DNA of 64,000 nt from a virus (IMGVR_UViG_3300025137_000020:1-64000), one strand, 5' to 3'; positions 2,123 to 48,400 are shown, counted from the stretch's first letter. Program-made: numbers and translations. The notes: generated from the sequence alone by a model not told the origin.

Positions 2123-2473
2123 TTAGTTATCTACTTTAGCAGAGCCTCTCCATTGGTAACAAGACCAGTACCGAGCTTTCCATTTCGGTCCAGGGTTATC
2201 ACAACTATGTCGTGCTCTAAAGTTTTTTCTGCGTTTGGGGTCGTCTCTTTTGATTTCCATATTGGGGTCACCAAATCGAACTACCACAACCGTACCTTTT
2301 TCGTTTTTGACGTATACTTTAAATTTCTTATTCTTATTCTCTGAAGTACGAATAGGATTATTAAGCTCTACTTTCTTACCTTGGTATTCAGCCTCAGTGA
2401 TTAGTAAGTGCTCGTAAAGACCTTCACATGCTTCATCTACCGCATCTTCAGTGTATGTTTTAAATTGCTTCAT
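2123..2473 (-). CDS. FRARH-motif virion protein with capsid-targeting-like N-terminus
   Basis: A 116-residue protein starting MKQFKTYTEDAVDEA, which resembles the T4 internal-protein capsid-targeting sequence and could be cut after VDE. The C-terminal half carries a highly distinctive block: 'VVVRFGDPNMEIKRDDPKRR', 'NFRARHSCDNPGPKWKARYW', then SCYQW. I recall this block as recurrent in head-region proteins of marine T4-like phages, alone or fused to other domains; its role is unknown. Two Cys and several His, Asp and Trp residues suggest a compact fold, perhaps metal-binding (inference). The start overlaps the upstream stop by one base (TAATG), a coupled arrangement. Confidence 0.75.
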   Translation of the reverse strand: MKQFKTYTEDAVDEACEGLYEHLLITEAEYQGKKVELNNPIRTSENKNKKFKVYVKNEKGTVVVVRFGDPNMEIKRDDPKRRKNFRARHSCDNPGPKWKARYWSCYQWRGSAKVDN

Positions 2474-4824
2474 TATTTTTTTACTTTAGCAGCGAGGTCT
2501 TTATCAGCTCCACCCCAAGTTCCTTTTGATTTAGTTACAAATGAATTGACTCGGGCGTATCCCCATTGTGTTGGATTAGTACCTGGTCTATGTCCGGTTC
2601 TCCATGCTGCGACTCCGCGGTTGAAGACTTGTTTTAGAATGCCATAGGAAATACCAGTCTTGTCAGCTTTCTTTTGTAGTGCGTCCAATTTCTTTTCTTT
2701 TACCGTCGTTTTTTCGAACATCTCGTAAGGAAGGTTTTTCTTCTTATTGTATTCTAGCTTTCTAAGTTTTTCTCTAAACGCCTTTGAACGACCATCTAAT
2801 CCTTTGGGGTCGGCTTCGTCAAATAGAGCAATCAATGCGTTTAAGAGTTTTCCTTTTTGCAGTAAATCTCTTGAAGACTTATCGCCAAGAGCTGTCATGA
2901 TCGTCTCTTGAGATGCGGTCTTAAGTTTCTTAAACATAACGGCGATTTCTTTCGGAGTATCACCGCGTTTAATCATGTAAACTACATTGCCGGCAGTCTT
3001 CTTATCAGAACCTTTGAACTTTAGTTTATCTAATGCTTTAGACTCTTTAATTTCAGCTTCTTCGCTGTTGATGCTTTGGAGTTCTTCTTCTATTGACTCA
3101 TTCTTACGAAGAAGGAGTTCTCTATTTAGCATTGATATTGTTTTCTTAGCTCGGGTAACTCCTTTAAAAGCTTTAAGTAAGTCTAATATATCTTGTTTGG
3201 AAAGTTTGACGAGCTGAGCTGCAGTAGCTTCTTCAATTGATTCTAGTTTAGTCAGTTTCTTCTTAAGCATATCGACATACTTATTACCACCATACATCTT
3301 AACCATACGAGCATCTGGATTTTTAATTAGTGCTTTAAGGTCTTTGATTAGAAGTTGCTTTTCAGAAGCTTCATCAAGACTTTCTGCAAACATGTTATAT
3401 CCACGAACGTCTTCTTCGTCTTGCATTTTCTTTATAAACTTTTCTGCGGAGGTTTGATTTGGAAAAGACTTTTTCATCTTCTTACCATTCCACAGTTCGA
3501 CTGAAGCGACTACTTTCTTTGCTTCTTCAAGGTCAGTAGATTCTCCGATTGTATCAACCTCAGGTTGTTTTTGAATATAACGAATAATAGGCTTTTCATT
3601 TGGAACAATCATACTGAGACCAGATTTGTCAATGCTTGTATCCCACGAACTAAATTTGTTTCTCAGTTTCTTTTTAAGTCTTAACGCGGCTTGCTTAGTT
3701 AAAGCTTTAACTACTACACGGCGGCCATCTTTCACACCTATGTTTTCTTCAATACTATTAGATTCTCCTAACACCGCATCAACACTACCACCTGGAACTA
3801 GTGCGGGATTGCCTTTCATTTGCTTAATCCCTTTCTTAATAGCTTCGGCTGAGTTACGTGCTTTTACATCCACTGTCTGGCCCTTGAAGAGTTTACCAGC
3901 TTTCTTAGTAATAGTTACTGTCCAAAATTTGATTGCTTCATTAACAGATTCGTTGACTTCGTCGTTCATGTCAATTTCCATCTCAGACAATCCCTTCAAG
4001 CCGGCTTTCTTACGGAGAATGTTTAGCGCTTTAATTGTTTCTCTTTGCTTTGGTGAACCAGGAATCTGTTTCAGAGCTAGAGTTGTAAGCTTAAGCATGT
4101 CTGCGTCATTATGCTCGTCAACTGCATCGACCTCAGCATCGTCTTCGGCTTCGTCGGCTTGGCCATCTGTATAATCTAAGGTGTCTTCTTCGTCTTCGTC
4201 TACATCTACAACTCTTTTTAATACAGAGCTTGATTCATAGCTATCGTTATCTTCGCACTTTTGTTTAAGCTCAGCTAAATCGTTTTCATCTTTATACCAG
4301 CTTGACTTAACCTCTTCTCCCGTACTCTTCTGTGCTATCAATTGAAATTCTGTTCTTTCTGCTAAATCCCTTTTAAACGCCGCTAAGGCGATAGTCGACT
4401 CATAAAGAGAATAGTTAGTTATGTCGATAGGACGCTTTTCTAAAAAGGCTTCTAAAACTGCTTCGGCTTCACTCGGAAATGAAGTCTTTAAAATTTCTAA
4501 ACGATAATTAATCATAGTGTTTTCCTTTGCTGGTACCCGGGTTCTTTTTCCTTTAGGTGCTTTTCGTGGTGTAAATAAATCAGTTGATGGTATTTTTTTC
4601 ATGGGTGCACCAGAGAAAAATACTAAAGAGCCATCGTCGTCAAGGGCGGGATAATATTGGTCTGGGCGCTTATCAATATCCATTTTAATACCCAGCTTAA
4701 CTCGACCGGTGAGTTTACTAGTCGCAACAGCAATATTATGCTTCTTAGATAAAGATTTCTTTCGAAACTTATTACCCAATCTCCATGTCTTTGCTAAATC
4801 AACTGCCTGCTTTTTGTTTAACAT
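2473..4824 (-). CDS. DUF5824-containing head polyprotein with repeated protease-like sites
   Basis: A 783-residue multi-segment protein. The C-terminal about 72 residues (about 712-783; 'KTGISYGILKQVFNRGVAAW', 'RTGHRPGTNPTQWGYARVNS', then a Lys-rich end) match the DUF5824 family as I remember it. An acidic linker lies at about 205-245. Between about 290 and 590 short segments are separated by sites that look like prohead-protease cuts: VNE|A at 296, IEE at 360, LEE|A at 434, LDE|A at 485, IEE|A at 532, IEE at 580, and possibly FDE|A at 670. The N-terminus is basic and lacks the classic targeting peptide. The start is an ATG nine bases after a TATAAATA box. I infer a virion-packaged polyprotein; no enzymatic motif was recognised. 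Confidence 0.8.
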   Translation of the reverse strand: MLNKKQAVDLAKTWRLGNKFRKKSLSKKHNIAVATSKLTGRVKLGIKMDIDKRPDQYYPALDDDGSLVFFSGAPMKKIPSTDLFTPRKAPKGKRTRVPAKENTMINYRLEILKTSFPSEAEAVLEAFLEKRPIDITNYSLYESTIALAAFKRDLAERTEFQLIAQKSTGEEVKSSWYKDENDLAELKQKCEDNDSYESSSVLKRVVDVDEDEEDTLDYTDGQADEAEDDAEVDAVDEHNDADMLKLTTLALKQIPGSPKQRETIKALNILRKKAGLKGLSEMEIDMNDEVNESVNEAIKFWTVTITKKAGKLFKGQTVDVKARNSAEAIKKGIKQMKGNPALVPGGSVDAVLGESNSIEENIGVKDGRRVVVKALTKQAALRLKKKLRNKFSSWDTSIDKSGLSMIVPNEKPIIRYIQKQPEVDTIGESTDLEEAKKVVASVELWNGKKMKKSFPNQTSAEKFIKKMQDEEDVRGYNMFAESLDEASEKQLLIKDLKALIKNPDARMVKMYGGNKYVDMLKKKLTKLESIEEATAAQLVKLSKQDILDLLKAFKGVTRAKKTISMLNRELLLRKNESIEEELQSINSEEAEIKESKALDKLKFKGSDKKTAGNVVYMIKRGDTPKEIAVMFKKLKTASQETIMTALGDKSSRDLLQKGKLLNALIALFDEADPKGLDGRSKAFREKLRKLEYNKKKNLPYEMFEKTTVKEKKLDALQKKADKTGISYGILKQVFNRGVAAWRTGHRPGTNPTQWGYARVNSFVTKSKGTWGGADKDLAAKVKK

Positions 4825-4833
4825 ACTAATCTC

Positions 4834-4841
4834 TATTTATA
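4834..4841 (-). promoter_or_regulatory. T4-type late promoter TATAAATA
   Basis: Perfect box on the minus strand, nine bases before the ATG at 4824. Predicted first transcribed base about 4828, so a leader of about four nucleotides. Confidence 0.8.
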
Positions 4842-4846
4842 CGATT

Positions 4847-7282
4847 TTACCCGCCAAACTCATGGCCAGCTACTCTTTTCATTTGCTTTTTAAATTCTGC
4901 GAAGTTAGGCTTAGTTTTATACAGCTTAATACTTATTTCTGCTCTTTCTTTTCCTTTGATTCTCCACTCGTAACCTTTGGCTTTGTGCTCAGGTTTAGTT
5001 GTTCGAACTACGCGTCTTTCAAATCCATTCTCCCAAGTCTCGCTCTTCTTTTCTTCTAAATCTTTTTCTTCGGGTACACAATTAGGAACATTCTTATTTC
5101 CCTTTTTCTTCATACCTACTTGCTTATAGCCATCCCAACAACCATCTGCTTCGTCTACCTCTTCGCCTGGGGTGTTCTTTTTATATTTTTTCGTTAGCTT
5201 ATCTGTTCCAAGTTCACCGTAGGTTTCTTTAAATGATTTAGTAGATTCTACTACCCATTCTTGGCCTTTTGGAACATACTTTTGAATCTTTCGTAGAATA
5301 TCTTTTTCGATATCAGTGTGTTTCATAGGTGGCTTACCTGATTCCTTAACCTTAAAGTATAAAGCATCTTTGAGAAACTGTCCGCCTTTATCGCTCTTTT
5401 TCAAATCACTATCTACACCAATCTTATTGAAGGCGAAGGTAATATCTCCGTCCATATATTTCTTTAGGCCTTTGCCCATCTTCACAATATCTAACATTGT
5501 TTGTGATGCGCCTCTATGAGTATTTACTAGAATTTCAATTGGTACTACTCTACCTCTTGTCGGATCGGTGTTCTGAGACTTAGCAACTTCTACATCGTTT
5601 ACTACCCATACGATATGAATATTCTTAGTAGGATAGCTTGCGCCTTGAAGAAGTCTAGTTATGTTGTCTAGCTTTCTTAAATCTTTTAGTGTGACATCGA
5701 ATATAACATTGGGCTTATCTTCAGGTTGCTTAGTCATTACCGATGTAAAGAATGCTGCCATCTTCTTATTAGGAAGATTCAATTCATCTGCTACTATACT
5801 GTGAAGTTTACTTACGTCGCCACTTCTAGTTAAATCGAATTTAGAAAGTTCTTGGCCAGTTTTGTCTTTAACAATCTGAGCAATCTTCGGTGCCTTGAGG
5901 ACTAATCTCTTTAATTCATCAACATCAAACTTCTTACCTTCCATGCCGATAAGATTGTCAAGTACAAATCCTTTACCGGAACCGGCTCCTCCAGCTAGAA
6001 TTAGTGCATGACCTGATTTAGGATATGCTTTTTTAGCGAAGGTAATTAGCTTCTCGTCAAGTTGAACATCCTCGACCATTGTGTATCCTAACTTAGGTAC
6101 ATTGTTATATCTTTCAAGCTCTTGTCCACTCGGTGTTTGAATTGATACTCCACCTTTAATCTTTACGATTTTAAGAGAGCTTGCTTTAGAACCGTATTCC
6201 TTCTTCAACTCCTTTTTGAGCTGAACCATGGTCATGTATTTAGTTTTTTCACCAAACATCTGTTGATACTTCTTTGTGTGTTTAGATGGTTTGGTTTTTG
6301 CAGTAGCATCACCGGGAGCGGGTTCGTATGCCGAATCATCATCGTCGTCTTTAGCTGCGCCTTTCTTAAAATGAGCGTCTCTTTTATCTTTAGTAGACTT
6401 GGACATCTCTTTACCTTTAGCATCTTTTCCATAATACTTAGCGGGTTGAGTGCCCTTTTTGTCTTTTACGTCTGGGTCTTGCTTAACTTCTGACAAATCT
6501 TGAATCCAATACTTTTTACCGATTGAAGATACAATGTAGTTTGGCTTTCTTTCTGATATAGTTACAATCTTGTTTTCTTTATTATAAACGGTGTCTCCAA
6601 CATTAAACACTTCGCCTCTAGCATATAATTCTCTTATATCTGATACTTTATCAAGTTGCACGTGTTCTCTAAAGTCGTTAACTTTCTTTAAGCCCATTGC
6701 TTTTCTTAATGCATTGAAGAGTTCGGCAGCACCAGAATAACCTTTCGGTAATCCATTTTGAAATAATTTAAAATCGCCATCTGATGCAGCAGTTCTCATC
6801 TTAGATGCTGACATGCCAGTTACGCCTTCAGCGTCTGGATCACGTTCTCCAGCCGATACTACATTAATGCCGTTGACGAAATTATAATATCCATGTCTAG
6901 CCTTTGTGTCGTTATACTTTTTCAATAAGCTATCAAAGTCTTGCACTCTATCACCACCAACAACCATAGTGATTTTATTATATCCCATATCATAAAGGTC
7001 TGAAGCGATGGCTAATGCATTATTGACCTTATTATTCATTACAATACTTCTTGCATGCTTTGGGAACATTTTGCGCATGAAGCGAATCTTATCTTTGTAT
7101 ACTAAAGGATTCTTTTTTGGGTCATTGGACGTGGATGCGTAAATCTTATAGTCTTTACTCTTTGCCACCTTAGCAATTTTGTCCATTAGCTTTTGGTGAC
7201 CGGTGGTAGGCGGGTTAAATCTGCCGAAAGTAAAAAATACTTCTTTTTCCTTTGCTTCATTAAATTGTTTAAATGACTTCAT
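4847..7282 (-). CDS. capsid-targeted nucleotidyltransferase-P-loop kinase fusion
   Basis: An 811-residue multidomain protein. It starts MKSFKQFNEA, resembling a T4 capsid-targeting peptide with a cut after E9. Residues about 14-190 form a cytidylyltransferase-like (HxGH superfamily) domain: GRFNPPTTGH at 20-29, GGDR at 109-112, SASKMR at 158-163. About 220-265 is a small domain of the 'FNVGDTVYNKENKIVTI...NYIV' type that recurs in T4-like head proteins. A charged linker follows, then LDE at 408-410. After it comes a zeta-toxin-like or nucleoside-kinase-like P-loop domain (LAGGAGSGKG at 429-438, 'FDVDELKRLV'). The tail from about 707 begins with VDE|A and has 'CWDGYKQVGMKKKG' and 'VPNCVPEE'. 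The nucleotidyltransferase-kinase order recalls NadR, but the substrate is not shown. Confidence 0.85.
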   Translation of the reverse strand: MKSFKQFNEAKEKEVFFTFGRFNPPTTGHQKLMDKIAKVAKSKDYKIYASTSNDPKKNPLVYKDKIRFMRKMFPKHARSIVMNNKVNNALAIASDLYDMGYNKITMVVGGDRVQDFDSLLKKYNDTKARHGYYNFVNGINVVSAGERDPDAEGVTGMSASKMRTAASDGDFKLFQNGLPKGYSGAAELFNALRKAMGLKKVNDFREHVQLDKVSDIRELYARGEVFNVGDTVYNKENKIVTISERKPNYIVSSIGKKYWIQDLSEVKQDPDVKDKKGTQPAKYYGKDAKGKEMSKSTKDKRDAHFKKGAAKDDDDDSAYEPAPGDATAKTKPSKHTKKYQQMFGEKTKYMTMVQLKKELKKEYGSKASSLKIVKIKGGVSIQTPSGQELERYNNVPKLGYTMVEDVQLDEKLITFAKKAYPKSGHALILAGGAGSGKGFVLDNLIGMEGKKFDVDELKRLVLKAPKIAQIVKDKTGQELSKFDLTRSGDVSKLHSIVADELNLPNKKMAAFFTSVMTKQPEDKPNVIFDVTLKDLRKLDNITRLLQGASYPTKNIHIVWVVNDVEVAKSQNTDPTRGRVVPIEILVNTHRGASQTMLDIVKMGKGLKKYMDGDITFAFNKIGVDSDLKKSDKGGQFLKDALYFKVKESGKPPMKHTDIEKDILRKIQKYVPKGQEWVVESTKSFKETYGELGTDKLTKKYKKNTPGEEVDEADGCWDGYKQVGMKKKGNKNVPNCVPEEKDLEEKKSETWENGFERRVVRTTKPEHKAKGYEWRIKGKERAEISIKLYKTKPNFAEFKKQMKRVAGHEFGG

Positions 7283-7286
7283 ACTA

Positions 7287-7661
7287 CTATTTATCTTCGT
7301 TTGAGGATGCCCTAAATCTCTTCAATCTTTCTTTTTCCGCTTTCTTAACTTTAGGCAAAAGCTTTCGTGCTATCCGGCCGATTGCCGATTGTTTCTTTTT
7401 AAGTTTCTTTTCTAATGATTCCCGTTCTGCAAATGATAAGTCGCTCGGGTTTCTGTTCTTTAAAATCTTTTTAGTCAAAATCTTTCTAGCCAGTTTTCTA
7501 GCTCGGTTTTCTAGCTTTTCGGGTGTAGCCATTTTCCGCATCGCGAGCTTTTTCTTACGAGCAATTTTCTTAGCCATCCGCCGCATCTTCTGTCCTCGCT
7601 TAATTCTTTGAGCGCGAGTAAGAGCTTCGTCGGTTTGTGTGTATTCTTTAAATGATATCAT
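7287..7661 (-). CDS. small highly basic internal head protein
   Basis: A 124-residue protein starting MISFKEYTQTDEALTRAQR, a capsid-targeting-like peptide with a likely cut after TDE. The remainder is extremely rich in Lys and Arg ('RMAKKIARKKKLAMRKMATP', 'RARKLARKILTKKILKNRN'), with helical periodicity. Composition, size and targeting peptide parallel the T4 internal proteins IPI-IPIII and the basic head proteins of marine T4-like phages. I infer a DNA-binding protein packaged with, and perhaps injected with, the genome. A TTG at 7670 is in frame, but I prefer the ATG at 7661: it overlaps the upstream stop as ATGA and puts the peptide at the true N-terminus. Confidence 0.8.
   Translation of the reverse strand: MISFKEYTQTDEALTRAQRIKRGQKMRRMAKKIARKKKLAMRKMATPEKLENRARKLARKILTKKILKNRNPSDLSFAERESLEKKLKKKQSAIGRIARKLLPKVKKAEKERLKRFRASSNEDK
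7288..7295 (-). promoter_or_regulatory. variant late promoter GATAAATA
   Basis: One mismatch from TATAAATA, but placed five bases before the ATG at 7282, the same spacing as several perfect boxes in this window. Predicted start of transcription is at the ATG itself. Confidence 0.55.
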
Positions 7662-8890
7662 TTTTCCCAACCCTTAATTACGTCTTTTGAAAAGTTATTA
7701 TAAGAAAACTCTAATCTATCTACAAGCTTAATTGCCCCGCCGCCAATCTTATCAATTGCAACAAACCCTTCTTGGCCCGTAACTTTAAATCCTTGTTTAG
7801 TTCTAACAAAAGTATTCATACTCTTAACCTTATCGAGTTTAGATATAATAAGTTCCTTTGCAACCACCAACTGCTTTTGTAGTTCGAACACTAGTTCTAA
7901 ATTCTTTTTGTTAGAAGCGGAGAAGAACTTAAGTCTTTCGTCTTTCTTCTGAACAACTTTTTCTTTTCCAGCTGCGCTCTTTCTCTTGTCAACCTCTTTA
8001 GTGTATCTTTGTTCATACCATTTGAGAAGATTGACAACATGCTTCTTTGAATCTTTAATCTTTTCTCCGGCTCTTACATATGTGTTATTGAATGTTTCGA
8101 GTTCTTGAGAAAGACTTGGGTCCTTTTCGATTTGTCTGAGTGTAGAGCCTTGAATCTTTTGGAATATCTTTCCTGCCACTGAAAGAGCTTTGGTAACCTC
8201 GTCGGTTTCTTCTTTTGACAATAGAGTACCAGACACATCTTTCAAACCAGCATCGTCAAAGAAGATTGAATCTGACTGCTTAAATGAGCCTGTGGCAACC
8301 TTATAAGTTGCTTTCATCGATTCAAAATCACTTCCGTTGTATGTGGTGTGAAAGATAATACCAATTTTAGCTTTATTAATCTTCTTGCCTAAATCAGATT
8401 TGACTGGTACTGCGTATACAATCGTGTTTGGTTGAAACGTATAATAGTTTTCCCCATCAATCGTTTCAGTATCTACATCATCAGTAAATAGTAAATCTCC
8501 CTGTACTACCCCTTTGATTCCTAACTTACTTAGTTCTGATAAAGCTACTTTGAGTTTGGATGCAAGGTCACCAGATGTATCGGCATCTACGTCTGCATTT
8601 GTTTTATAGACTTTAGGATTCTTATTGAAGATTCCTTTCTTAGCCACAAAGAATTTTCCATCGCTTGGGTCGATTCCAGCAAATACTGCAGGAGCACCAT
8701 CCCATTTAACAGTTACGTCGGTTGTCTTTGAAGATTCTCCGGCTAACATATCTCTCATACCACGAAGAGCAAAGATTGCTTCTCGAGCTCCTTTTACACC
8801 ACCATATAATACTCGGTCCTCAATATGAGTCATGTGAGTATTCTTACCGGGTGCTGATGCTTCAGCAATATATGATTTGAAATTAATCAT
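7658..8890 (-). CDS. DUF6267-like protein with polynucleotide-ligase-type motifs and capsid-targeting peptide
   Basis: A 410-residue protein. Its N-terminus MINFKSYIAEA is the best match here to the T4 internal-protein targeting peptide, including the IAE|A cut site. The body matches a T4-like phage family I know as DUF6267. Reading it for motifs gives KWDG at 62-65 (ligase motif I, KxDG, with K62 as candidate adenylated lysine), VVQGDLLF at 128-135 (motif III-like), EGFV at 374-377 (motif IV) and IKLVD at 387-391 (motif V). A Lys-rich helical insert lies at about 240-350. This order fits the ATP-dependent ligase/nucleotidyltransferase superfamily. The assignment is inference from motifs; RNA or DNA substrate is not determinable. 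Both ends overlap neighbours by ATGA, so it is co-translated with them. Confidence 0.8.
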   Translation of the reverse strand: MINFKSYIAEASAPGKNTHMTHIEDRVLYGGVKGAREAIFALRGMRDMLAGESSKTTDVTVKWDGAPAVFAGIDPSDGKFFVAKKGIFNKNPKVYKTNADVDADTSGDLASKLKVALSELSKLGIKGVVQGDLLFTDDVDTETIDGENYYTFQPNTIVYAVPVKSDLGKKINKAKIGIIFHTTYNGSDFESMKATYKVATGSFKQSDSIFFDDAGLKDVSGTLLSKEETDEVTKALSVAGKIFQKIQGSTLRQIEKDPSLSQELETFNNTYVRAGEKIKDSKKHVVNLLKWYEQRYTKEVDKRKSAAGKEKVVQKKDERLKFFSASNKKNLELVFELQKQLVVAKELIISKLDKVKSMNTFVRTKQGFKVTGQEGFVAIDKIGGGAIKLVDRLEFSYNNFSKDVIKGWEK

Positions 8891-11043
8891 GGTTTTAATA
8901 TTACCTTTGCTTGTTTAATAATACCTTTTGGTCCAACTGATTTTTTTAAATATTTCACTAAAGCTTGAACTGCTTTTTTAAACGCGCCTTTAAAAGTAAA
9001 ATCTCCATCGTCTAAAACCATATTGCCCATCGCACGAATTGGAACCTTATAGTCAAACTTCCACGTGTCATTGCCTTTAGGTCTTTGACCTCCGTGTTTA
9101 GATGACCATTTTAATATATCAATATTAAACGGAATAGAGCCAAAGATTTCTTCTAATTCCCTTTCTTGCAAACTCTGAGCGTGCTCTTTAAAAGTAGTCT
9201 GTTCTACCACGTTGAGGTCTTTAAATTTCTTTTGTACTTCTGGGTGCCACTGATATGTCGTATTAAGTTTTCCGGTTACACCCGACTTTGACCTTTGGGT
9301 TTTCATTGCAATAGGAATACGCTTGCCGTCTTTAGTTATAGCATATACAAAAATGTTTCTTCCGGTAATCGCGCCAGTCTTCGAGTTCTTAGTAACCTCT
9401 TCACCATCACCTGGTTTACCAACATCGAAGTGAGTAATAAAATCGTCGGTAGATTCTATATTAAGTGCAGCTTTGATTTGCTCAGCTTCTACTACAGTAC
9501 CGCCCATATTTAAATTAAACAGGCCTGGATATTTTCCTACGCCTTCACCATCTTCACCATCGACAACTCCAAGATGGAGCTTATCAATTATATTCTTGCC
9601 TTCAAGATAGTCTCCTAACCCTTTAGATTCTCCGTTCGGCAATTTGATTTGCGTTTGATTTAGCTTATCGTTAGTTTCTCTTTGTACGTCTAAGCTTCTT
9701 TTCTTAATCTTGCCTAAGTTGACCTTAACATCGTTTTGAGCGCCGACTCTTTGAATCAGCTTAATCATATCCGTCGAAGGCTCTTTGGTTTTATTAGGAT
9801 CAGCCATGTAATCAATAAATGCTTTAAGCTGCTCTTCTTCACTAGCATCGTCTGCAACCGAAAATCTATTCTTAGTCTTAGTTCCTGTAAAGATTGATTT
9901 CTTACCGCCGACAAATCTAGACGCAACTAAAGGGTCTGCTTTTATCTTTTCAATAGCAGCTGTCATATCTACCTTCTGTAGACCTTGCCCTAGTGGTACT
10001 CCGACATCTTTAAGTGCAGCTTCAGCTGAGATCAAAGCCTTCTGACCATCTTCGATAATTGCGATGGCTTTAGCTTTTGTTTCTTCTTTAAGTTTTAAGC
10101 CAGAAATGACATCTTTCATTTGGTCTGACTCTTTGTTAGGTGTTGAATTGGCTTGGATATCTGATGTCGAAATCTTATCCGAGTGGAATGTTACAACTCC
10201 TCGGCCTTTGTTATCAATTGCAATTGAGGAAGTATCGGACGGATTCTCTCCACCACCACTCACTCTTATAAATTCTACTAATTGGGCTCTAGGAATCTCT
10301 ACACCTTTATTAGTATAAAAAGGACCTGCACTAGCTTTGATTAATTCGACCTGTGCTTCGATTGACTGTGAATGGCCATAGAAATTTCTAATTTTAGCTG
10401 GGGGAATAACTTTGCCGTCTTCAGCAAGTGCGTCAATCGCTTTAGTCATTTTCTTATGTTTTTGCATGCCAGACTTGGCAGTAGAACCCATAAGAGCAAA
10501 TAGCTTTTTATCTAAGCCTTCTCGTTCTCCTCTTTTAAATGTCTCACCGCCTGAGTTCTGTTTACCGAGGGTAGTGTCTTTGACTTGATTGTATAAAGCT
10601 CTCTGAAGTTCTTCTTCGGTAATATCTGGTTTAAGTGTAATAATGTTGGACGCTTCACCCGACATAATTTCCTGCATCATCGACCCCGCGTTTCCAGGTG
10701 CTGGTTTAAACCCATCTACTTCATTATAGCCAATATCTAATCCTTTCTGCTTAATGGCTCCATCAGAAAATTTGTCATCTCTGTCTCCTAGCTTTCCACG
10801 AGAAGGTGCATTTGACGTCGCAGTTGATTTTTTAGAAGGTTGAGCTTTATCAGATGGCGTTGTGTCTGATTTAGGGTCTGCTTTGGCAATTGGTTCTAAC
10901 CTTTTTCCGTCGTCAGATGCTTTGAAAGACGGTTTATCGCCTTTCTTTTTTCCATATACACCTCGGCCAAAATGGACTAATCCCATTTTCTTGGCTTTGT
11001 CTGATGCTTCTGATTCGTGTAACTTAAAACTTTTAATTGACAT
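8887..11043 (-). CDS. large head-cargo protein with capsid-targeting-like N-terminus, function unknown
   Basis: A 718-residue protein that is the first gene of the left late block. It starts MSIKSFKLHESEASDKAKK, resembling a capsid-targeting peptide with a candidate LHE|S cut at 8-10. Next is 'MGLVHFGRGVYGKKKGDKP', a short motif I recall near the N-termini of other T4-like head proteins. A low-complexity linker follows at about 50-90. The rest is soluble and mixed alpha/beta with no motif I can name, ending in a basic tail. It sits downstream of a late promoter (11090-11097) and a hairpin. The leader contains GGGAACAC before the ATG, also seen before gp8. Function is unknown; a packaged protein is inferred. 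Confidence 0.8.
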   Translation of the reverse strand: MSIKSFKLHESEASDKAKKMGLVHFGRGVYGKKKGDKPSFKASDDGKRLEPIAKADPKSDTTPSDKAQPSKKSTATSNAPSRGKLGDRDDKFSDGAIKQKGLDIGYNEVDGFKPAPGNAGSMMQEIMSGEASNIITLKPDITEEELQRALYNQVKDTTLGKQNSGGETFKRGEREGLDKKLFALMGSTAKSGMQKHKKMTKAIDALAEDGKVIPPAKIRNFYGHSQSIEAQVELIKASAGPFYTNKGVEIPRAQLVEFIRVSGGGENPSDTSSIAIDNKGRGVVTFHSDKISTSDIQANSTPNKESDQMKDVISGLKLKEETKAKAIAIIEDGQKALISAEAALKDVGVPLGQGLQKVDMTAAIEKIKADPLVASRFVGGKKSIFTGTKTKNRFSVADDASEEEQLKAFIDYMADPNKTKEPSTDMIKLIQRVGAQNDVKVNLGKIKKRSLDVQRETNDKLNQTQIKLPNGESKGLGDYLEGKNIIDKLHLGVVDGEDGEGVGKYPGLFNLNMGGTVVEAEQIKAALNIESTDDFITHFDVGKPGDGEEVTKNSKTGAITGRNIFVYAITKDGKRIPIAMKTQRSKSGVTGKLNTTYQWHPEVQKKFKDLNVVEQTTFKEHAQSLQERELEEIFGSIPFNIDILKWSSKHGGQRPKGNDTWKFDYKVPIRAMGNMVLDDGDFTFKGAFKKAVQALVKYLKKSVGPKGIIKQAKVILKP

Positions 11044-11089: not shown

Positions 11090-11097
11090 TATTTATA
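11090..11097 (-). promoter_or_regulatory. T4-type late promoter TATAAATA
   Basis: Perfect box on the minus strand upstream of the 718-residue protein. Predicted start about 11084, giving a leader of about 41 nt. Confidence 0.8.
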
Positions 11098-24054: not shown

Positions 24055-25308
24055 TTACAGACCTGCAACGTTGAACTTCGCGAAGTACGGATTTGCACCC
24101 GGTGCGAAAGGACTGTCGTTCTTACCTGCTGTGTATGCTTGAGCAAACGGATTTGCTGTCATGCCATAACGAGTCTTGAACGCGATACGTGGCTGGAAGT
24201 CTTCCTCGCCTACAGCCTTCACCATTGTGAGTGGGACGTATGGGCAATAGAATAGACCGGCATCGTAAGGAGAAGCTCCACGATATCCAACAACCACTGT
24301 TTCAGTAGCTGCATAAGGGTCTACATAGACTTTAAGCGAACCGTTAAGTGTACCAGCAAATGTGGATACTTGAGCGTCAATGTTAAGACCATTCTTCTCA
24401 AGAGCTTCACCATACTGGAGGTATCCAGATGCGGCAAGAGCTGAACCAATATTTGGGGATACGATAACGAAGTTACCTTTACCACGACGAGTTGCAACAC
24501 CAATTGCATTAGCAGTTTTATCGATTTGATATGCTAGTGCTTGGAACTTCTCTTGAGCCCAACGAGCGCCAAGATTGTCATTAGCTGTATCGCCATCGAA
24601 TCCGGTACCTGGTGAACCAACAGCAGTATCGATCGCATCAGACTTGATTCTGTCAATCATCTCACGATTGATTTCCGAAAGGATTTCAGTTGAGAGGATA
24701 TTAGCAAGTTCAGCTTCAGCATCAAGACCATGAATTGCTTTAAGGTCTTGTGCAAGTTCCATTGTGTAACCAGCTTTAAGAGCACGAGTCTTAGCTTCAA
24801 CGCTAGACTTGCGAATCTCGAAGCCCATTGCATTCATCTTAGTGCCATCAGAGGCAGTAGAGATAAGAGCTTCACCATCAGCAGTTGAATGACCAGTACC
24901 TGGAGAATCACCAGAGAAAGCAGTTTCTGCTTCATCGAATAGCGCTTCAGCACCAGATGTTACACCAGTAGCTGTATTAGCTTTGTACTGAGATACCATA
25001 GAGAATACAAGACCAGTTGGTCCACTCATTGGCTGAACACCAGCTACGTCATACGCAATAAGCGATGGCATAGCACGACGTACAAGAGCAATCAATACTG
25101 GGTCGAAGTTCTGTGCAGAACCGGCAACTGTATCGTTAGTTTCATTGATTTGAAAACTAGAGTGCGATGCGGTTTCGCGCAGAGCTTTTTCTTGATTTTC
25201 AAGCAAAACGGCAGTAACCGCTTTACGATATGAGTCCTTAATTGGGGCGCAATCGCCATGTTCCAATAGAGGAGCCCACTTCTTTTGAGCATTTTCTGAA
25301 TTAAACAT
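24055..25308 (-). CDS. gp23: major capsid protein gp23
   Basis: A 417-residue major head protein, shorter than T4 gp23 (521). The start 'MFNSENAQKKWAPLLEHGDC' and the segment 'RRAMPSLIAYDVAGVQPMSG' are typical of the family. Later come 'PYVPLTMVKAVGEEDFQPRI' and 'FKTRYGMTANPFAQ'. The N-terminal propeptide should be removed by gp21; the best (I/L)xE site is INE at 54-56, leaving a mature start at about residue 57 (T4 cuts after residue 65). LLE at 35-37 and LRE at 43-45 are alternatives. An AAAAGGAA ribosome site precedes the ATG. A strong terminator follows the stop. Confidence 0.96.
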   Translation of the reverse strand: MFNSENAQKKWAPLLEHGDCAPIKDSYRKAVTAVLLENQEKALRETASHSSFQINETNDTVAGSAQNFDPVLIALVRRAMPSLIAYDVAGVQPMSGPTGLVFSMVSQYKANTATGVTSGAEALFDEAETAFSGDSPGTGHSTADGEALISTASDGTKMNAMGFEIRKSSVEAKTRALKAGYTMELAQDLKAIHGLDAEAELANILSTEILSEINREMIDRIKSDAIDTAVGSPGTGFDGDTANDNLGARWAQEKFQALAYQIDKTANAIGVATRRGKGNFVIVSPNIGSALAASGYLQYGEALEKNGLNIDAQVSTFAGTLNGSLKVYVDPYAATETVVVGYRGASPYDAGLFYCPYVPLTMVKAVGEEDFQPRIAFKTRYGMTANPFAQAYTAGKNDSPFAPGANPYFAKFNVAGL

Positions 25309-25361: not shown

Positions 25362-26756
25362 TTAAAATGCTTCGCTATTTAATTTAGCGGTAGCATTGAC
25401 ATACCGACTCATTAGAGGTGAAAGTCCATCACTTTCTTCTTTCACTTCTTCTACCATGACTTCGGTTTTTGTATTTTTGTTTTCAGATTTTACGGTTTCT
25501 GCAACTGTACTTTTCTTCGAGAAATAAGATTCACGAACGATTTTAGCTTTCTTGGAGAACGCCTCGGCCGATTCAAATACGATATCTTTAGTAAGTTCTT
25601 TGAACTTAGCAACATCAGTATCGGCTAGACCTTCAGATAGTTCAGTGACAAGAGAAGCTTTCTTCAAAACAATTACTTCTTCAGCAAGTGCATTGATTGT
25701 TTCTTCTTTTGATTCAACATCTTCGGTTAGTTCTGCATTTTGTTGAGCTACTTCGTCGAACATATCTGTCTTACCTTCTGGCATTTCGATATAATGTTCG
25801 ATGAATGTGGATTTAAGAGAAGACATAAAGCCTTCTGCAATATCCGAGCGAAGAGTATTAGTAACAGCAACTTCGTTCTTCTCAATCCATTGTTCAGCTA
25901 CATAAGTTAAGTAGCTGTCAATCTTATCGATAAGACCTTCATGAAGTTCATTAACTTCTTCAGATACATAATCAGCATAAGATTCTTCGATCGATTGTAC
26001 GTGTTCTCTGACCTTTGAGGTTACAGCAGCTTCAAAAATAGTCGAGGCTTTAGTCTTGAATTCTTCAGTTAAAGAATCGTCTTCAGCACAGAGTGCGTCT
26101 AAGTCTTCTTTCATTGAACCATAACTAGCTTCGATTTTTTTCATTGCATGAGCTGTAGCTGCAGCGGTGATTGTTTTAGAGATTTGGTTAATAGCAGAAT
26201 CAACATCATCGCTCGGCTCTTCTGAACCTTCGATTCCGTCGTCTTCTTCTGACTCCTCTACCTCTTCTATATCGTCGTCGCCATCGTCGTCTTCGTCTTC
26301 ATCGCCATCGTCGTCACCGACAACTTCGTCTTCAACTTCGTCTTCCATGTCGTCTTCTGCATCATCTGCTTCAACTTCTACTTCATCAGTATCAACTTCG
26401 TCTTCGTCTTCGTCTTCTTGCTCTTCTTCGCCATCTTCGTCTTCTGCAACTTCATCTTCAGATACTTCGGCAGAACCTTCGATTCCGTCTTCTTCTTCAG
26501 TTTCAGTTACGTCTTCTTCTTCTTTCTCAGTTTCAGTGTCATCACCTTCTTCTGAGTCTTCAGCACCTTGATCTTCATCTTCGCCCCATACTTTAAAGAC
26601 TGCAGCCTCTTCAACAGCTTCTTCAGTAGTTTCTTCAACCACTGTTTCTGCTGCTTTGGATTCTACCTCTTCATTCTCTAGGAGTTCGGACTCAAGGCCA
26701 CCGATACCAGAAATGGTTTCTAGTATTGATTTTTGTTCTTTTTGATTTTTGGCCAT
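25362..26756 (-). CDS. gp22: prohead core scaffold protein gp22
   Basis: A 464-residue scaffold, much longer than the 269 residues of T4 gp22. A short N-terminus is followed by a very long Glu/Asp-rich region (about 30-180). Then come helical coiled segments ('KKIEASYGSMKEDLDALCAE', 'LHEGLIDKIDSYLTYVAEQW', 'GLADTDVAKFKELTKDIVFE') and the end 'SPLMSRYVNATAKLNSEAF'. The family role is to form the internal core on which gp23 assembles, after which gp21 degrades it. The acidic region would add much negative charge to the core. AGGAAA precedes the ATG. The order gp21-gp22-gp23 is as in T4. Confidence 0.92.
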   Translation of the reverse strand: MAKNQKEQKSILETISGIGGLESELLENEEVESKAAETVVEETTEEAVEEAAVFKVWGEDEDQGAEDSEEGDDTETEKEEEDVTETEEEDGIEGSAEVSEDEVAEDEDGEEEQEDEDEDEVDTDEVEVEADDAEDDMEDEVEDEVVGDDDGDEDEDDDGDDDIEEVEESEEDDGIEGSEEPSDDVDSAINQISKTITAAATAHAMKKIEASYGSMKEDLDALCAEDDSLTEEFKTKASTIFEAAVTSKVREHVQSIEESYADYVSEEVNELHEGLIDKIDSYLTYVAEQWIEKNEVAVTNTLRSDIAEGFMSSLKSTFIEHYIEMPEGKTDMFDEVAQQNAELTEDVESKEETINALAEEVIVLKKASLVTELSEGLADTDVAKFKELTKDIVFESAEAFSKKAKIVRESYFSKKSTVAETVKSENKNTKTEVMVEEVKEESDGLSPLMSRYVNATAKLNSEAF

Positions 26757-26775: not shown

Positions 26776-27417
26776 TTAGAGTTTGGAGAGGAAATCCTTA
26801 AACACCTGTTCTTGTACAGAAGCTAGTTCTGCGGAAGAGGCTTTACGAATTTCAGTCTCATATTTTTCAAGTTGCTGAGCTTTCAATATTCCATTATCCC
26901 ATATCCACTCTACGCCTTCCATAATGCCATCTACGAAAGCACCTTGGGCTGAGGGGTCTTGGACAATGTCTACTGTAGAGAGTATGTAGTCACTATTGAC
27001 ATACGTAGCTCCCTGTTTATTCTCAACTGTTCCCATACCACGGCTAGAGACGCCAAGCTTAACTCCACCTTCAATAAGACCTTCAACGATCTTACCCATA
27101 GGGGTGTTAAGAATTTGCGCCTTTCCAACAACATCATCACCATTAAATTTTAATTCGGTGATTTTGTGTGAAACTTTATCGAGGTTAATTTGTGGACCTT
27201 CTGGGTGGTCTAACTCTCCCACCGCACGTCCTTGACTAACCTGTTCGGTGACGTATTTTTCAACGGCATCGAATAAAATGTCTTTAGGATAGACTCGGCC
27301 ATTTCTATTTTTCTTTGCAGCCTGCATAAAGATACCTTCAATGAAAGTATGTTTTTTGCCATCCTTTTCTTCTGTAAGATAATTTAAATTATCGTAATGT
27401 TCTGTTATTAATCTCAT
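26776..27417 (-). CDS. gp21: prohead core protease gp21
   Basis: A 213-residue serine protease (T4 gp21 is 212). Signature elements: 'KNRNGRVYPKDIL', the histidine in GELDHPEGP (H71), the serine region GVSSRGMG (S124/S125), and DIVQDPSA at about 150-157. It cleaves gp23, gp22, internal proteins and itself, typically after (I/L)xE. Many other proteins in this window carry such sites, including the cargo block at 2-11 kb. The start overlaps the upstream small gene by ATGA. Confidence 0.95.
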   Translation of the reverse strand: MRLITEHYDNLNYLTEEKDGKKHTFIEGIFMQAAKKNRNGRVYPKDILFDAVEKYVTEQVSQGRAVGELDHPEGPQINLDKVSHKITELKFNGDDVVGKAQILNTPMGKIVEGLIEGGVKLGVSSRGMGTVENKQGATYVNSDYILSTVDIVQDPSAQGAFVDGIMEGVEWIWDNGILKAQQLEKYETEIRKASSAELASVQEQVFKDFLSKL

Positions 27418-39903: not shown

Positions 39904-42900
39904 TTAGCTAGGTTGTAAATCGTATGTGATTGCTGCGTAGAAGATACCTGATACATATACACCAGATAGAATATCAACTCCGTCGGGTCCAGGTGTTAAT
40001 GTTGGATCACCGCCTGCAAAGTGCATATTGCTTGGAAAATCAATGTCGTAACTACCAGCGTTTTTGATGATCATTGTAAATGCTCCACCGGTGTCTCGAG
40101 TACTGTTCGCGGACAATGTCATAGTAGAATTACCACTTACATTAATAACATGAACATTAGAATCTCCTAGATATATTGTAAATGCACCATTAGCAGTAGT
40201 TGTCTTAATGTTATTTGTGACAGTACCTTGAAATTTTACATGATTCGAATCGTGGTGATAGCTAAACACTCTGTGCTCGGCACCACCAGAGCTATTACCA
40301 GTTTCCTCTGGTCTTGACGTACCGCTGATTTGAGTTGTGCTAGCAGATTTTCTAAAGAATGTTATTTCGTCCTCACTTCCAACAACTGAAGGGTTGTTGT
40401 CGCCGTTGTATAAGAAACCACCACCGTGAGTACCCGATTGGCCAACGTAAATTCTACCAGTTCCTTGGGAGGTACCCATAAGTCGAAGCTCTGCGACTTC
40501 GGTATCTGGTGCGACTATATCAATACCCTCGCCATTGGCGTAGTGACCACTAGGAGAAGCTGTACCAATACCAAGTCTCCGTCGTGACTGGTCGTATACC
40601 ATACCATTGGTATCAATTGTCAAATCTCCACTTGCTACAATTGGCTGGCTGAATGTAATATTACTAGAATTGAACTGCGCCACTGTAGAAGAACCACCTG
40701 GCTGTAGTTTAATATTTTTAGCCGCTGCAGCAGTTGCAGTAGTTCTAATTTCAAGACCTGAAGAGCTGGCTTTAATAGCATGAAGGGAACCACCACCAGA
40801 GCTTTCAAATCTAATATGGTCACCCACATCAGTAGTTCCAGTTTTTGTAGATTTTAAACTTAACACCGCATCTGGTGTGATGTCCATTGCGGTGGCATTG
40901 CCAGAAATGAATAGAGCATTTTCAAATATGTTCGATCCATTTCTGCTGATTTTATATCTATCTACTTTAGTTGCACTATTGGCTCTACGTGTTGTAATAG
41001 AGAAGATTCGATCGTCGGCAGTACCTACTTTAATAGTAGCTTGCATTACCCCGCTTCTATAAAAATCAAGAACCGAGGAATCGGCATTTACATTAAACCC
41101 ACCACATGCATTAGTTTTTCGCGAGAACATGAAAAATGGACTTCCGCTATTGTGATTAAACGAAAATCCTTGGTCTGTATTGTTTAAACCAGGTACGCCA
41201 GTGCTGTCAGTAAGTGCGCCAGTTGAATCAGTCTTAAACAAGATAAGCCTGGTTGTGGTCATATCAAGCGCGTAATCTGTATCAGCTGACGAGCCAGATT
41301 GGGTTTGCAAATCGTTATCGGCTAGATTTTGAGCCGTCCTTGCCATTAATCCTAACCTATTGTATGAAGTGTTAATATTGTTTCTAAAGGTAGTACCCGT
41401 TGTGTGCCTAACTACAAAGTGGTCGCCACTGCTGTTATCGCAGAGGTCTAAAACAAGACTACCGTAATCAGTGGCGTTGGTCGTCGCGGAGGAGTCTTTA
41501 CTGTTTTCAGCATATAATCTTGCGCCATCTGTACCATCTCCAGCAGCTTGCTTATCGATGGCTGGAAACTGTAAGTATTCTTTTCTATTCAGATAACTGC
41601 TACTATCACCGGAAGATGCGAAGGTCCCAGCCGTTCCGCGTATACGTACTGTCCCTTGTACATCCAATGCTTCAGCTGGTGTTGTAACACCTATACCAAT
41701 CGAATCCGATTCGATCGTGGGCACTTTGAACTTAACTAAAGATTCGACTTCAGTACTATTCCAATCCATAACCCTGGTACTATCAGAATATAGGGCGAGG
41801 TCTTCGGAGTTATTTCCATGTGTTCTAAAATAATGGCTTTTACCAGTACCAAAAGTGCCTTCTATCTTTAACGCAATATTGTTCTCGAAATCTCCTTTTA
41901 AATGAAGTTGGGCATCTGGATTAGTAAGGCCTATGCCAACCTTACCATCTGTATCGATAGCTAATCTTTCTTTGCTATCAGTTTGATCATAAATTCTAAA
42001 TACTCCAGCATCAGTAATAAGTCTAAAGTGACCTTCAGAGTTCTGTAAGTCGTAGCCAGCTTGGCCAGCGCCTGTTGTCTTAACCAAGACTTTAGCACTC
42101 CCCACAGTTGTGTCAGTTACATCTAGAAGTGCAGTAGGAGCGGTGACTCCTCCAATACCAACTTTTCCATCAGTATCAACTACGAACTTTGTTTGTGCTG
42201 GACGAGCCGTGTCAATGCCATCTGCGGCATAACCAAGCATAAAGGTAGATTGAAGATAGCCGCTTCCCGCAAACCATTCACGATCATTGGCACTAACTGC
42301 GCTATTTAAGCTATCTTTAATATAAATCCCTGCGGCTCTACCTTCGAATCCTATTAGGTTTATGACTGCAGTATCCAACGGCGCAGCGCCGTCATCGGCT
42401 ACATCTACCACTAATCCGCCATGACTAGTCGTCCTAATCGTTCCGCCGGCGACGATGGAACCTACATCAGAAATATTACCAGATGCATCAACATCAAAAT
42501 TACCATTAGCGGCCTGTATAGTTCCGTCTGCATATATGTTACCACTAATATGAAGATTGCTACCGACATAAAGCTTCTTGGTCACGGCTAATCCGCCAGA
42601 TAAAGTATTTGCTCCACCGTCTGCTGAGCTTGTTGCGTCTGTTGTTAAAGTATTAGTAAATATACCATTCATTGATATACCACCAACCTCATCCAAATCT
42701 ACTTGGTTAAACTCTACAGTAGCTGAACTTCCCGTTGATGATATTCCAGTAACATTCAAATTACCAGTGATATTAACATTACCTTTTAATTTAGCGTCTC
42801 CATCGACCTGAAATTTGTATGGTCCGTAAGTCCGGCCATCTAAATCTACAGTAGCATCAGCCGAAGTTGCGTTTATTCCTACAAAACTATTGTCGGAGTC

Positions 42901-45442: not shown

Positions 45443-48400
45443 TTATTGGGTTGCGATTGCTCTAAAGTTTTTAATCTCTGGTACAATAGCGCTATCTGCA
45501 GTTGTACCATCGGATGCCACAGACCTTAGTATAATTTTTATCTGAAATTTAGTAAATAGATTTATGTCATCAGAAGTTGATGTTCGAAAGTGTACTTCTC
45601 TGAAGTTCCCGCTGACTGGTATAGTTGCCGATTCTAATTTAACGTATGCGCTTGATCCAGTGATGTCATCAAATCTAGCATACACATCTACATTACATTG
45701 TGGCAAAGGCCTTTTAATGTCCATATATACGTCTAGCCTATCCGCCGAGTTGTCTAAAACTACTGGCTTCGTGATATATCTTGCATCTGCATTGCCATGT
45801 GTCTCTCTAGTTTCATTAGTCAAATCATTGTCAATGTTATTCTTAATTGACAATAATGATAATCTTTGAACATCTAATTGTGGAGTTACGTATTTATTGT
45901 TAGACTTTAGCGTTGCTGTTAAAGCTAATCGATTTGCATATAAATCTACTGTAGAATGTAGATTTAGAACTCTACCCGGCGATATGGAATACGTTTCACC
46001 GGCTACAGTAAGACTATATGAAATCGAAGTTCCTGGTAGTTCAACTGAGTTACCTGCATTCAGATTAATCGCGTCACACTTTACTGGATTGCCCGAAGTC
46101 GTACCTGCAGGAAAAATTTTAGTAAATGAAGAATATCCACATGTAGTAGATGTTTTAGTTACAGACGATCCGCTTTCAAAGAATTGCATATAATTGATTT
46201 TCATCTTGAAATCTTTATTTTGATCAGGCGTCCAAGTTGAAGCATTAGCTGATTTGAGAGATACACCAGTATAAGGATTCTTTGTAATTCTTTGAGAACC
46301 TGCTCCTACATCAATTCCACCAACTTCAGAATGCCATAATGTCCAATCTGGCGAGTTACTCATTACTACGATAGCATATTCACTTCCGCCTTTGAGATGT
46401 ACTGGAGAGTCAAACACAAACTTAGTGGCTAATGAAGCATTGGTTGGGTCGACTTCTGCAATTGTTTTAGTCCCCACCGCTGCAGCGGCAGCGAGAGTTG
46501 CAGAAGCTCCGGCATCAACTGCGGCTTGAGCATTTGGGTATCTTTCAACTCTACTAAATGGAATCATTTTTTGGGTTGGAATACCATTCTCTGTTGGTAC
46601 CAAGTGTATTGAAACTGGTAATTTACTATGAGATTTAGCAAAGTATAAATCAATATCTTTTAGTGTTATGCCAGCTGGGTATAAATCTCCATCTATTAAG
46701 AAGGTTTGTGCAAGAGGGTCAACGTGTCTAATTCTGCCAGTAGCTGCTACCTGAGTAGTTGTTAATGTTCTATTTGATTCAACTCGTCTTTCGTCAATTG
46801 CGACTCTTCTTGTAGTTAAAACTTGCTCTTCAACTGTCTGCAATAGGCCTCTAGCTGCGTATGTAGCTTTAGCATATGTTGTAGCAGCAGTCAAATCATT
46901 ATTAGAATCGTCTGAAAATATTACTTCTCTTTCACCAGTTCTAAATCTGAGCGCGTCGTTATTTGGAATAACCAAATAACCTGTCAATGTGCCAGCGTCA
47001 TTACTCACTAAAGTGTCTGCTGAGATATCACCTGGAGAATCGTTAGTGTGGTCTTGACGGGTCGAATCGTCTCTAAATTCGACAAACGCAGTAGATTTAA
47101 CATAACCACTAACATCAACGCCATCAAAGAACGGATATATTGTAGTGTTAGGTTTTAATCCGGTAGCTCTAAAATACACTCTCCTTGAACGGATAAATGG
47201 TACAAAAGATACATCAACAACTTTGTCTCCTAAACTTTCTCTAATTGTTTCGAGTTCAGCAAACTGTTGCATGCCGTCTCTAGTTTGAATAGTTGATGTA
47301 GTTCTCGCCTCTAGTTCAATCTGAGCGCGTCTTTGGTTTACTGCTGTTACAGTACCACCATTAAATGTTGGTACCTCTAAAGTGTTTCTATGCCCGCATC
47401 TGCAATTTCTAGTATGGGTTGTCCCGCCATGCTGCCTCATAATATTTGCGGTCGAGGTCATGTTATTCCAACCCAAACTCCTAGTTTCGGTTACTCCACT
47501 CCAAGTTGTGTTCCAATCGTTCCAACGAGTACCTTCTGATGCTAATTGTTCATTTACTAGATTTAAAATAGCTTCAGAATTACCATCTTGTGATATAATT
47601 ACTTCTGGTCTGCGATTAGTATCTCTCCATTCATCATTGTCAGGCGAGAGCTTAACTTCACCCACCCAAGATGCTACATCAAATGGATTAACACTTATTG
47701 CAACTGATGCGAATGGTTGGTCAATCAACGTACCGATTGAGCTAGAATTTAATCTAATAATATCTTCTTGGCCGATTGGTGAAGGGTCATCCACTATGCC
47801 CCCGGTGGTTTTTAGTTTGTCGTCTGCTTTATTGCCGGCTCCTGGTGTCCCAAGAGTAATTCCGATATTGGTAGTACGAAATGATGGCCTTAAGATTCCT
47901 TTTTCAGGCTCTATTGATATTCTATAACCAGGGTCACTCGGCATGCCGATTGCGTGACCTTTAAATTCATCGACCATAATTCCATGCTTAAATCTGTCAA
48001 TGATAGTATCATCGTCAAGCACTTTTTGATCTTTTGTAATCTGCTCTAAAAGGGATAATGAAGAATAGTACTCTAAGTTCTTAACGCGTCGGTCAATCTT
48101 ACCGATGTCTTTCATCGTATAACGACGATTGTCATGGTAACCTATCTCGATACCCTGTACGGAATTTGTGTAAGCTGGTACATCTAAATCATAGAGCAAC
48201 ATTGCGTTATCTGGTATAGATTGAGGACCATTTGCTTCTGTATCGCCTTCTAAATATTCAAACTCGCCATTTGTTTTTAAAACTATTCTGTCGTGTCGAG
48301 GAATAAAAAATTCAATATTACCAAACTCAATAATACCATTGGGGTCAATAGAAACATTTGAGCCTCTAAAGTCAATCATATCTAATAAATGTCGACCGCT

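Follow-up and report, generated by a model that had tools for sequence, protein, structure and literature searches.

The operon analysed here occupies positions 2123-11043 on the minus strand of a 64,000-nt stretch of viral DNA (the window), itself taken from a virus record of 105,336 bases. A preliminary description of this DNA had reported five proteins with a shared short N-terminal peptide (here termed the label), contiguous or overlapping genes, late promoters, and a gp21 homologue, and each of these elements was recovered. All five labelled N-termini were located on the minus strand as claimed. The operon comprises the following genes, with arrows marking predicted cleavage positions:

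8887-11043, minus strand: predicted 718-aa cargo protein; label MSIKSFKLHESE↓A at 11043-11008
7658-8890, minus strand: 410-aa DUF6267 protein; label MINFKSYIAE↓A at 8890-8861
7287-7661, minus strand: 124-aa basic protein; label MISFKEYTQTDE↓A, with the ATG inside a slightly longer TTG ORF
4847-7282, minus strand: predicted 811-aa cargo polyprotein; label MKSFKQFNE↓A
2473-4824, minus strand: predicted 783-aa polyprotein, the sixth operon gene; no N-terminal label
2123-2473, minus strand: predicted 116-aa cargo protein; label MKQFKTYTEDAVDE↓A, and a second site LITE↓A before an EYQGKK module

Spacing was tight (overlaps of 4, 4, and 1 nt; gaps of 4 and 22 nt). Late promoters at the operon and head genes elsewhere in the window were as follows:

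11090-11097, minus strand: T4-type late promoter TATAAATA, upstream of the 718-aa gene
4834-4841, minus strand: T4-type late promoter TATAAATA, upstream of the 783-aa gene
26776-27417, minus strand: gp21-type prohead maturation protease (PHROG 207, 5e-76; GELDHP and LGVSSRG motifs), the predicted processing enzyme
25362-26756, minus strand: gp22-type scaffold/core protein (PHROG 237, 7e-60), the predicted docking partner of the label
24055-25308, minus strand: gp23-type major capsid protein (PHROG 138, 8e-136), with a propeptide site, INE↓T, that conforms to the [IL]xE rule

The late-promoter motif TATAAATA occurred 17 times in the window, compared with 7.6 expected, and its presence upstream of two operon genes is as expected for late expression. 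A portal homologue was also encoded in the window, alongside the gp21-, gp22-, and gp23-type genes. Two tail-tube homologues were present in this one genome (23484-23984 and 29370-29897), as well as an ORF of 3,677 aa (52552-63585) that neighbours two others, each above 1,700 aa (39904-45219 and 45443-50641), all three presumably encoding tail or baseplate proteins. A 283-aa acidic protein (949-1800), probably another head protein, has no F..Y label and contains DPVGKEDDDIDNDGDEDETDEYL, an EF-hand-like motif that also occurs in S-SCSM1_92 (annotated as a virion protein) and S-SM1_191; in its relatives, a different, helix-like N-terminus (..IAxAYxxMYEA) is common.

The first ten residues of T4 IPIII suffice, positions 4 and 7 governing targeting and positions 8 and 10 processing (work of Mullaney and Black, reviewed in PMC9026906). 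The preliminary description had treated the five labels of the operon as alike. This applied to those of the 116-, 811-, and 410-aa proteins, which were canonical, whereas the other two had looser spacing and a non-canonical P3: in the 124-aa protein, F4/Y7 were present and the spacing to E was extended (QTDE), and in the 718-aa protein the label was shifted (HESE). These two labels resemble that of T4 IPI rather than those of IPII and IPIII. Labelled homologues of the 124-aa protein were found in C48C1 (MLSFKQFVSE↓V) and L098 (MKSFKEYTE↓A), and the second site of the 116-aa protein occurred at the same place in C48C1 and HTVC008M. Residues 1-26 of the 410-aa protein had a pLDDT below 50 in its predicted structure.

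Of the 1,907 possible starts in the 105-kb record, a pattern built from the five labels matched exactly these five, plus one start within a giant ORF. Since this pattern was post hoc, orthologue conservation and held-out phages provided the independent tests. Alignment of N-termini across related phages, which the preliminary description had named as a check, was performed with 80 viral contigs encoding DUF6267 relatives and showed conservation of the label at F4, Y/F/H7, I/L8, and E10. Among 41 distinct canonical labels, selected by E10 and a hydrophobic residue 4, F4 and I/L8 were present in all 41 and Y/F/H7 in 39, with more variation at positions 2, 3, 5, 6, and 9. This agrees with the earlier reading of IAE↓A in the 410-aa protein as a T4-type gp21 site, with [IL]xE at positions 8-10. 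In the unselected DUF6267 alignment, M1 and F4 were invariant and E10 reached at least 90%, a conservation similar to that of the catalytic core.

A loose N-terminal pattern gave too many chance matches and was replaced by a label profile. Its training set comprised 16 labels, drawn from the window, C48C1, DLP6, and Melnitz (a cultured Methylophilales phage with 52% DUF6267 identity), and the profile was applied to phages outside this set. By this profile, 63/80 members of the DUF6267 family and 67/101 of the 811-aa family were scored as labelled, as were 11/35, 27/54, and 19/31 members of the 116-, 124-, and 783-aa families, respectively; fused or partial matches are probably one reason for the lower fractions in these last three. 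The label was scarce in two neighbouring families (0/27 and 1/20 scored as labelled). In T4, used as a positive control, IPIII and IPII ranked second and third of 263 genes, and the known gp21 substrates gp24, gp22, IPI, and Alt were also among the 13 best of these 263, entries that we take to be gp22 and gp24 being recognised by length and N-terminus. The top label score in the T4 genome, above those of IPII and IPIII, belonged to gp61.1 (NC_000866 18966-19130; 54 aa, hypothetical), which starts MKTFKEFIKED. Two annotated starts in C48C1 (OQ984149 63448-64857 and 66817-68091) seem too far downstream, and upstream GTG starts restore the labels MIKNFSQYLLE↓E and MKDFFELRE↓A.

Read from sequence, major capsid propeptides end in INE↓T in this phage, LSE↓A in Melnitz, LGE↓A in DLP6, and LTE↓A in both S-SZBM1 and S-CREM2; the T4 site is known to be LTE↓A. 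Since labels and major capsid propeptides end alike, they look like substrates of one protease. This common site rule supports the previously proposed removal of the label by gp21.

Evidence on virion content was available from other phages. In S-CREM2, the five best-scoring of 203 genes all encoded virion proteins detected by mass spectrometry (PMC10665884): a cytidylyltransferase, an APH-like kinase, a SAM hydrolase, and two hypothetical proteins. All five came from the class of non-structural or hypothetical virion proteins (P = 3e-5). A score of at least 8 was reached by 5/27 members of this class, 0/153 undetected proteins, and 0/23 structural proteins (P = 5e-5); a rank test over the whole distribution was weak (P = 0.04), the signal being confined to the top scores. 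Labels were also found on nucleotidyltransferases that three further reports list as virion proteins: cytidylyltransferase T4-GC190 of S-SM1 (PMC3037559), which starts MKKFSAFLNE↓A and has the top label score of its genome, and the nucleotidyltransferases of S-SZBM1 (PMC9146016; MRFRQFIIE↓A) and S-SCSM1 (PMC9602691; MKSFLQFLKE↓A). The S-SZBM1 homologue of the DUF6267 protein was absent from the list of proteins detected in S-SZBM1 virions. Retention of the four IPIII determinants, together with virion detection of a labelled nucleotidyltransferase, kinase, SAM hydrolase, and other proteins in other phages, strongly supports capsid targeting of the labelled operon proteins, which the preliminary description had claimed.

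It is very improbable that the similarity of the labels reflects chance or a translation-initiation preference, the proteins being ordinary cytoplasmic late enzymes and the virion detections contamination. The label comprises only about 10 residues, and the authors of the proteomes themselves state that detections in CsCl preparations could partly reflect carry-over. However, conservation falls exactly at positions 4, 7, 8, and 10, the T4 control recovers known gp21 substrates, the five top scores in S-CREM2 are all virion proteins, and the neighbouring families are virtually unlabelled. A different alternative, that the proteins are accessory core or scaffold parts, which for the most part leave the head once gp21 has cut them and do not reach a host, has precedents in T4 gp22, gp67, and gp68, which are cut and cleared (PMC5694885). 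The linker density of the 783-aa protein is closest to that of gp22 scaffolds, and S-SCSM1_30, a strongly labelled protein of 106 aa, has no virion-protein annotation. Persistence of labelled enzymes in mature virions of four other phages, and mature parts that are predicted folded enzymes rather than acidic coils, make this alternative quite improbable.

The virion-detected Cas9-like nuclease of S-CREM2 (OR473000 7704-10313) has its label after a short N-terminal extension (..LRFASFMAE↓A). A small conserved protein encoded near terL in S-SCSM1 (44215-44535) and S-SZBM1 (122311-122628) has a perfect label (MKTFKQFMSES in S-SCSM1) and no virion annotation, and is possibly a core protein cleared after cleavage.

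The preliminary description had included a nucleotidyltransferase-kinase and a ligase-like enzyme in the operon. For the former, assignment could be extended. The N-terminal domain of the 811-aa protein contains a conserved HIGH-type GRFNPPTTGH motif, matches Pfam CTP_transf_like (9e-5), and has a predicted NMNAT fold (match to 1m8j, probability 1.0, E 6.5e-4), by which it is an NMNAT-like nucleotidyltransferase; the kinase matches Pfam Zeta_toxin and has stand-alone relatives in many Klebsiella and other T4-like phages. The 410-aa protein matches Pfam DUF6267 (6e-107), in the alignment of which K62, D64, and G65 (KxDG), E374 and G375 (EG), and K388 (K) are invariant, and its best-probability fold matches are ligases, with weak scores (probability at most 0.47, E above 0.1). 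With these conserved motifs and weak fold matches, "ligase-like" is a fair, putative name, and the protein is probably a ligase-like nucleotidyltransferase. DUF6267 and 811-aa profiles found no meaningful relatives among PDB sequences, and PADLOC returned no matches. Labelled neighbours of relatives were mostly without Pfam or PHROG assignment, apart from one weak AAA ATPase; a labelled HAD phosphatase of RNA-repair type, scoring just under the curated cut-off, adjoins one relative. Phage NAD salvage acts as counter-defence (PMC9503650) and, by analogy, a role of the cargo in RNA repair or NAD restoration is a plausible hypothesis.

An aspect missed by the preliminary description is the architecture of the large proteins: the 811-aa protein looks like a cargo polyprotein, and the same probably holds for those of 783 and 718 aa. 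The 811-aa protein consists of the label, the NMNAT-like domain with an SKST module, module B, the zeta-toxin-like kinase, a CW module, and a C-terminal module. Predicted sites lie at residues 345 (MFGE↓K, before module B) and 404/410 (QLDE↓K, before the kinase) and, downstream of the kinase, at 690 (TYGE↓L), 711 (EVDE↓A, before the CW module), and 744 (DLEE↓K, before the C-terminal module). Several of these modules exist elsewhere as single labelled proteins, and the end of their label corresponds to an [ILVMFY]xE site in the 811-aa protein:

RB43 ORF241c SLDE↓ALITF; 811-aa protein QLDE↓KLITF
L110 FLNE↓KVKYM; 811-aa protein MFGE↓KTKYM
L127 YISE↓AGGAGDEGTDKL; 811-aa protein TYGE↓LGTDKL
L150 FISE↓EKDGNPCWKGYK; 811-aa protein EVDE↓ADGCWDGYK
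L140 YISE↓AESWEVGYERR; 811-aa protein DLEE↓KKSETWENGFERR

In the predicted structure, pLDDT was below 50 at residues 344-348, 395-400, 402-408, 665-714, and 740-751, stretches that cover or flank sites 345, 404/410, 690/711, and 744; the sites are thus predicted to lie in linkers. The RB43 gene (NC_007023 144917-145750) encodes a stand-alone labelled zeta-toxin-like kinase (MKSFKDFVSLDEA↓LITF) that is predicted to be packaged and has relatives in Klebsiella, Cronobacter, and Aeromonas phages.

The 783-aa protein is composed of small modules split by repeated ES..[LIV][DE]EA linkers, with a C-terminal DUF5824 module (Pfam, 1.3e-16) that is found at more than 12 loci as a separate protein with its own label. 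Cuts are predicted after residues 296, 360, 434, 485, 532, 580, and 670. Its six linkers were unmatched by any other protein in ten genomes, in which only gp22-type scaffolds reached three. The 718-aa protein, previously described as an unknown, indeed had no Pfam or PHROG match. It carries, at about residue 632 (about position 9148), the remnant of a label, TTFKEHAQSLQERELEE↓IFGSIPFN, followed by a C-terminal module; L109/L110 encode this module as a labelled protein of its own (80-85% identical). Its N-terminal part has a second shared segment directly after the label, approximately KAKxLGLxxxGxGxWxDxxGxxxxxxxxGxL, and similar segments occur in S-CREM2 gp12 and gp14, S-SCSM1_91, and S-SM1_190, which are otherwise unrelated cargo proteins.

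Full internal labels were considered as evidence for polyproteins and dropped, their density being 0.32 per 1,000 aa in labelled and 0.49 in unlabelled proteins. Since they were not denser than background, the polyprotein case rests on homology-defined junctions. Among 81 non-redundant module junctions (SKST excluded), 74 had an [ILVMFY]xE site within 15 residues upstream, compared with a mean of 38.5 and a maximum of 52 in 2,000 composition-preserving shuffles. Composition was thereby controlled, although the motif is a short one that acidic linkers often contain. Forward-only junctions outnumbered reversed-only ones 40:1. Exclusion of SKST was data-guided, and with SKST included a site was present at 123/157 unique junctions. 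The SKST module itself was rejected as a cut junction: upstream sites occurred in only 13/41 cases, so that NMNAT-SKST behaves as one unit and not every module border would be cut.

These data also bear on a reading in which labels target the proteins and are trimmed, but the internal sites are fossils of gene fusion, each large protein remaining a single uncut effector of several domains in the manner of polyvalent proteins. A fusion origin is clear, label remnants being present at 25/81 junctions, and cleavage at internal sites is a prediction. Most junctions, however, have lost the label yet retain the site. In every fused DUF6267 protein found, a site directly precedes the DUF6267 domain, and four of these proteins, from related contigs, have lost the aromatic label and kept ILE↓A (e.g., VDICDSILE↓A and VDIDETILE↓A). 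The directionality of the site, its placement in predicted linkers, and its absence from most NMNAT-SKST junctions, these being one apparent unit, also argue against intact effectors, which we consider rather unlikely.

We propose, with a probability of about 0.8, that the operon encodes head cargo of a T4-like phage, with core-docking labels, release by the gp21-type protease after [IL]xE, and cargo polyproteins split in trans. This proposal rests on the label, its conservation, the junction sites, and the homologues in virions of other phages; from these we infer cleavage, delivery, and cargo function in this phage. The label, through its aromatic residues at positions 4 and 7, would dock the five proteins on the gp22-type core. 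After closure of the shell, the gp21-type protease would cut labels, capsid propeptides, and polyprotein junctions, and the mature modules would remain with the packaged DNA and enter the next host along with it. The polyproteins would be fusions of separate cargo proteins; as the fused junctions keep a gp21-type site, one targeting event could load several products that are separated in trans by the same protease. The NMNAT-like and zeta-toxin-like kinase modules, the probable ligase-like enzyme, and the basic protein may then, most simply, target host nucleotides or RNA ends ahead of phage gene expression. A broader view, to which we give slightly better than even odds, is that marine T4-like phages build an injected proteome from interchangeable labelled modules whose genes fuse and split freely. 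With a prohead-protease site retained at the junctions, the capsid would serve as a processing compartment that converts polyproteins into a mixed set of enzymes (NAD/nucleotide transfer, kinase, ligase), which would enter the host along with the genome, plausibly for RNA repair or NAD restoration ahead of host defences.

Proteomic studies of cyanophages have time and again detected virion enzymes and left undecided whether these are packaged or contaminants. With a short label proven in T4, packaged cargo becomes predictable from sequence in hundreds of phage genomes; DUF6267 relatives alone occur in 465 phage records. The virus probably packs a ready-made toolkit, which it may deliver to the host with its DNA. 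Serial, trans-processed cargo polyproteins, if confirmed, would represent a new use of the prohead protease.

T4 capsid targeting, the gp21 rules, double processing of Alt, and polyvalent proteins were already known. T4 IPI-III and Alt have the same label as found here, with aromatics at positions 4 and 7 and [IL]xE at 8-10, and T4 has the same types of gp21, gp22, gp23, and late promoters as the window; Alt, which has two gp21 sites, is an enzyme that T4 injects. The mature proteins encoded here are, however, unrelated to those of T4 and include NMNAT-like, kinase, and ligase-like enzymes from a contiguous cargo operon, as well as multi-module proteins with serial internal sites, and the relatives are mostly from marine phages of the Kyanoviridae type. 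Polyvalent proteins (Iyer et al. 2017, PMC5512222) carry several effector-like domains per chain, are thought to be packaged and delivered, and have been likened to viral polyproteins. They resemble the 811-aa protein, with its NMNAT-like, kinase, and further modules, in combining different domains in one chain. Embedded peptidases were proposed for them, whereas the sites found here fit a prohead protease acting in trans, the modules also occur as single labelled genes, and Pfam and PHROG searches found no peptidase domain in the 718-, 783-, or 811-aa proteins.

In phiKZ and SPN3US, as proposed here, head-internal proteins are cut after glutamate by a gp21 relative (gp175/gp245), sometimes at several sites (PMC5694885, PMC9026906); the multiple cuts described there lie in propeptide regions, whereas those predicted here fall between folded modules. 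Homologous nucleotidyltransferases and other labelled enzymes, including cytidylyltransferase/NMNAT and kinases, are found in cyanophage virions (PMC3037559, PMC9146016, PMC9602691, PMC10665884), for which the accessible parts of these reports propose no targeting mechanism and the label found here supplies one. In the open-access papers retrieved, we found no link between capsid targeting and cyanophages beyond an incidental mention in one review, nor any description of cargo polyproteins processed in trans for T4-like phages, which is no proof of absence. Targeting to the core, in-head cleavage, and packaging are the T4-type mechanism, while marine multi-enzyme cargo and trans-processed polyproteins look new.
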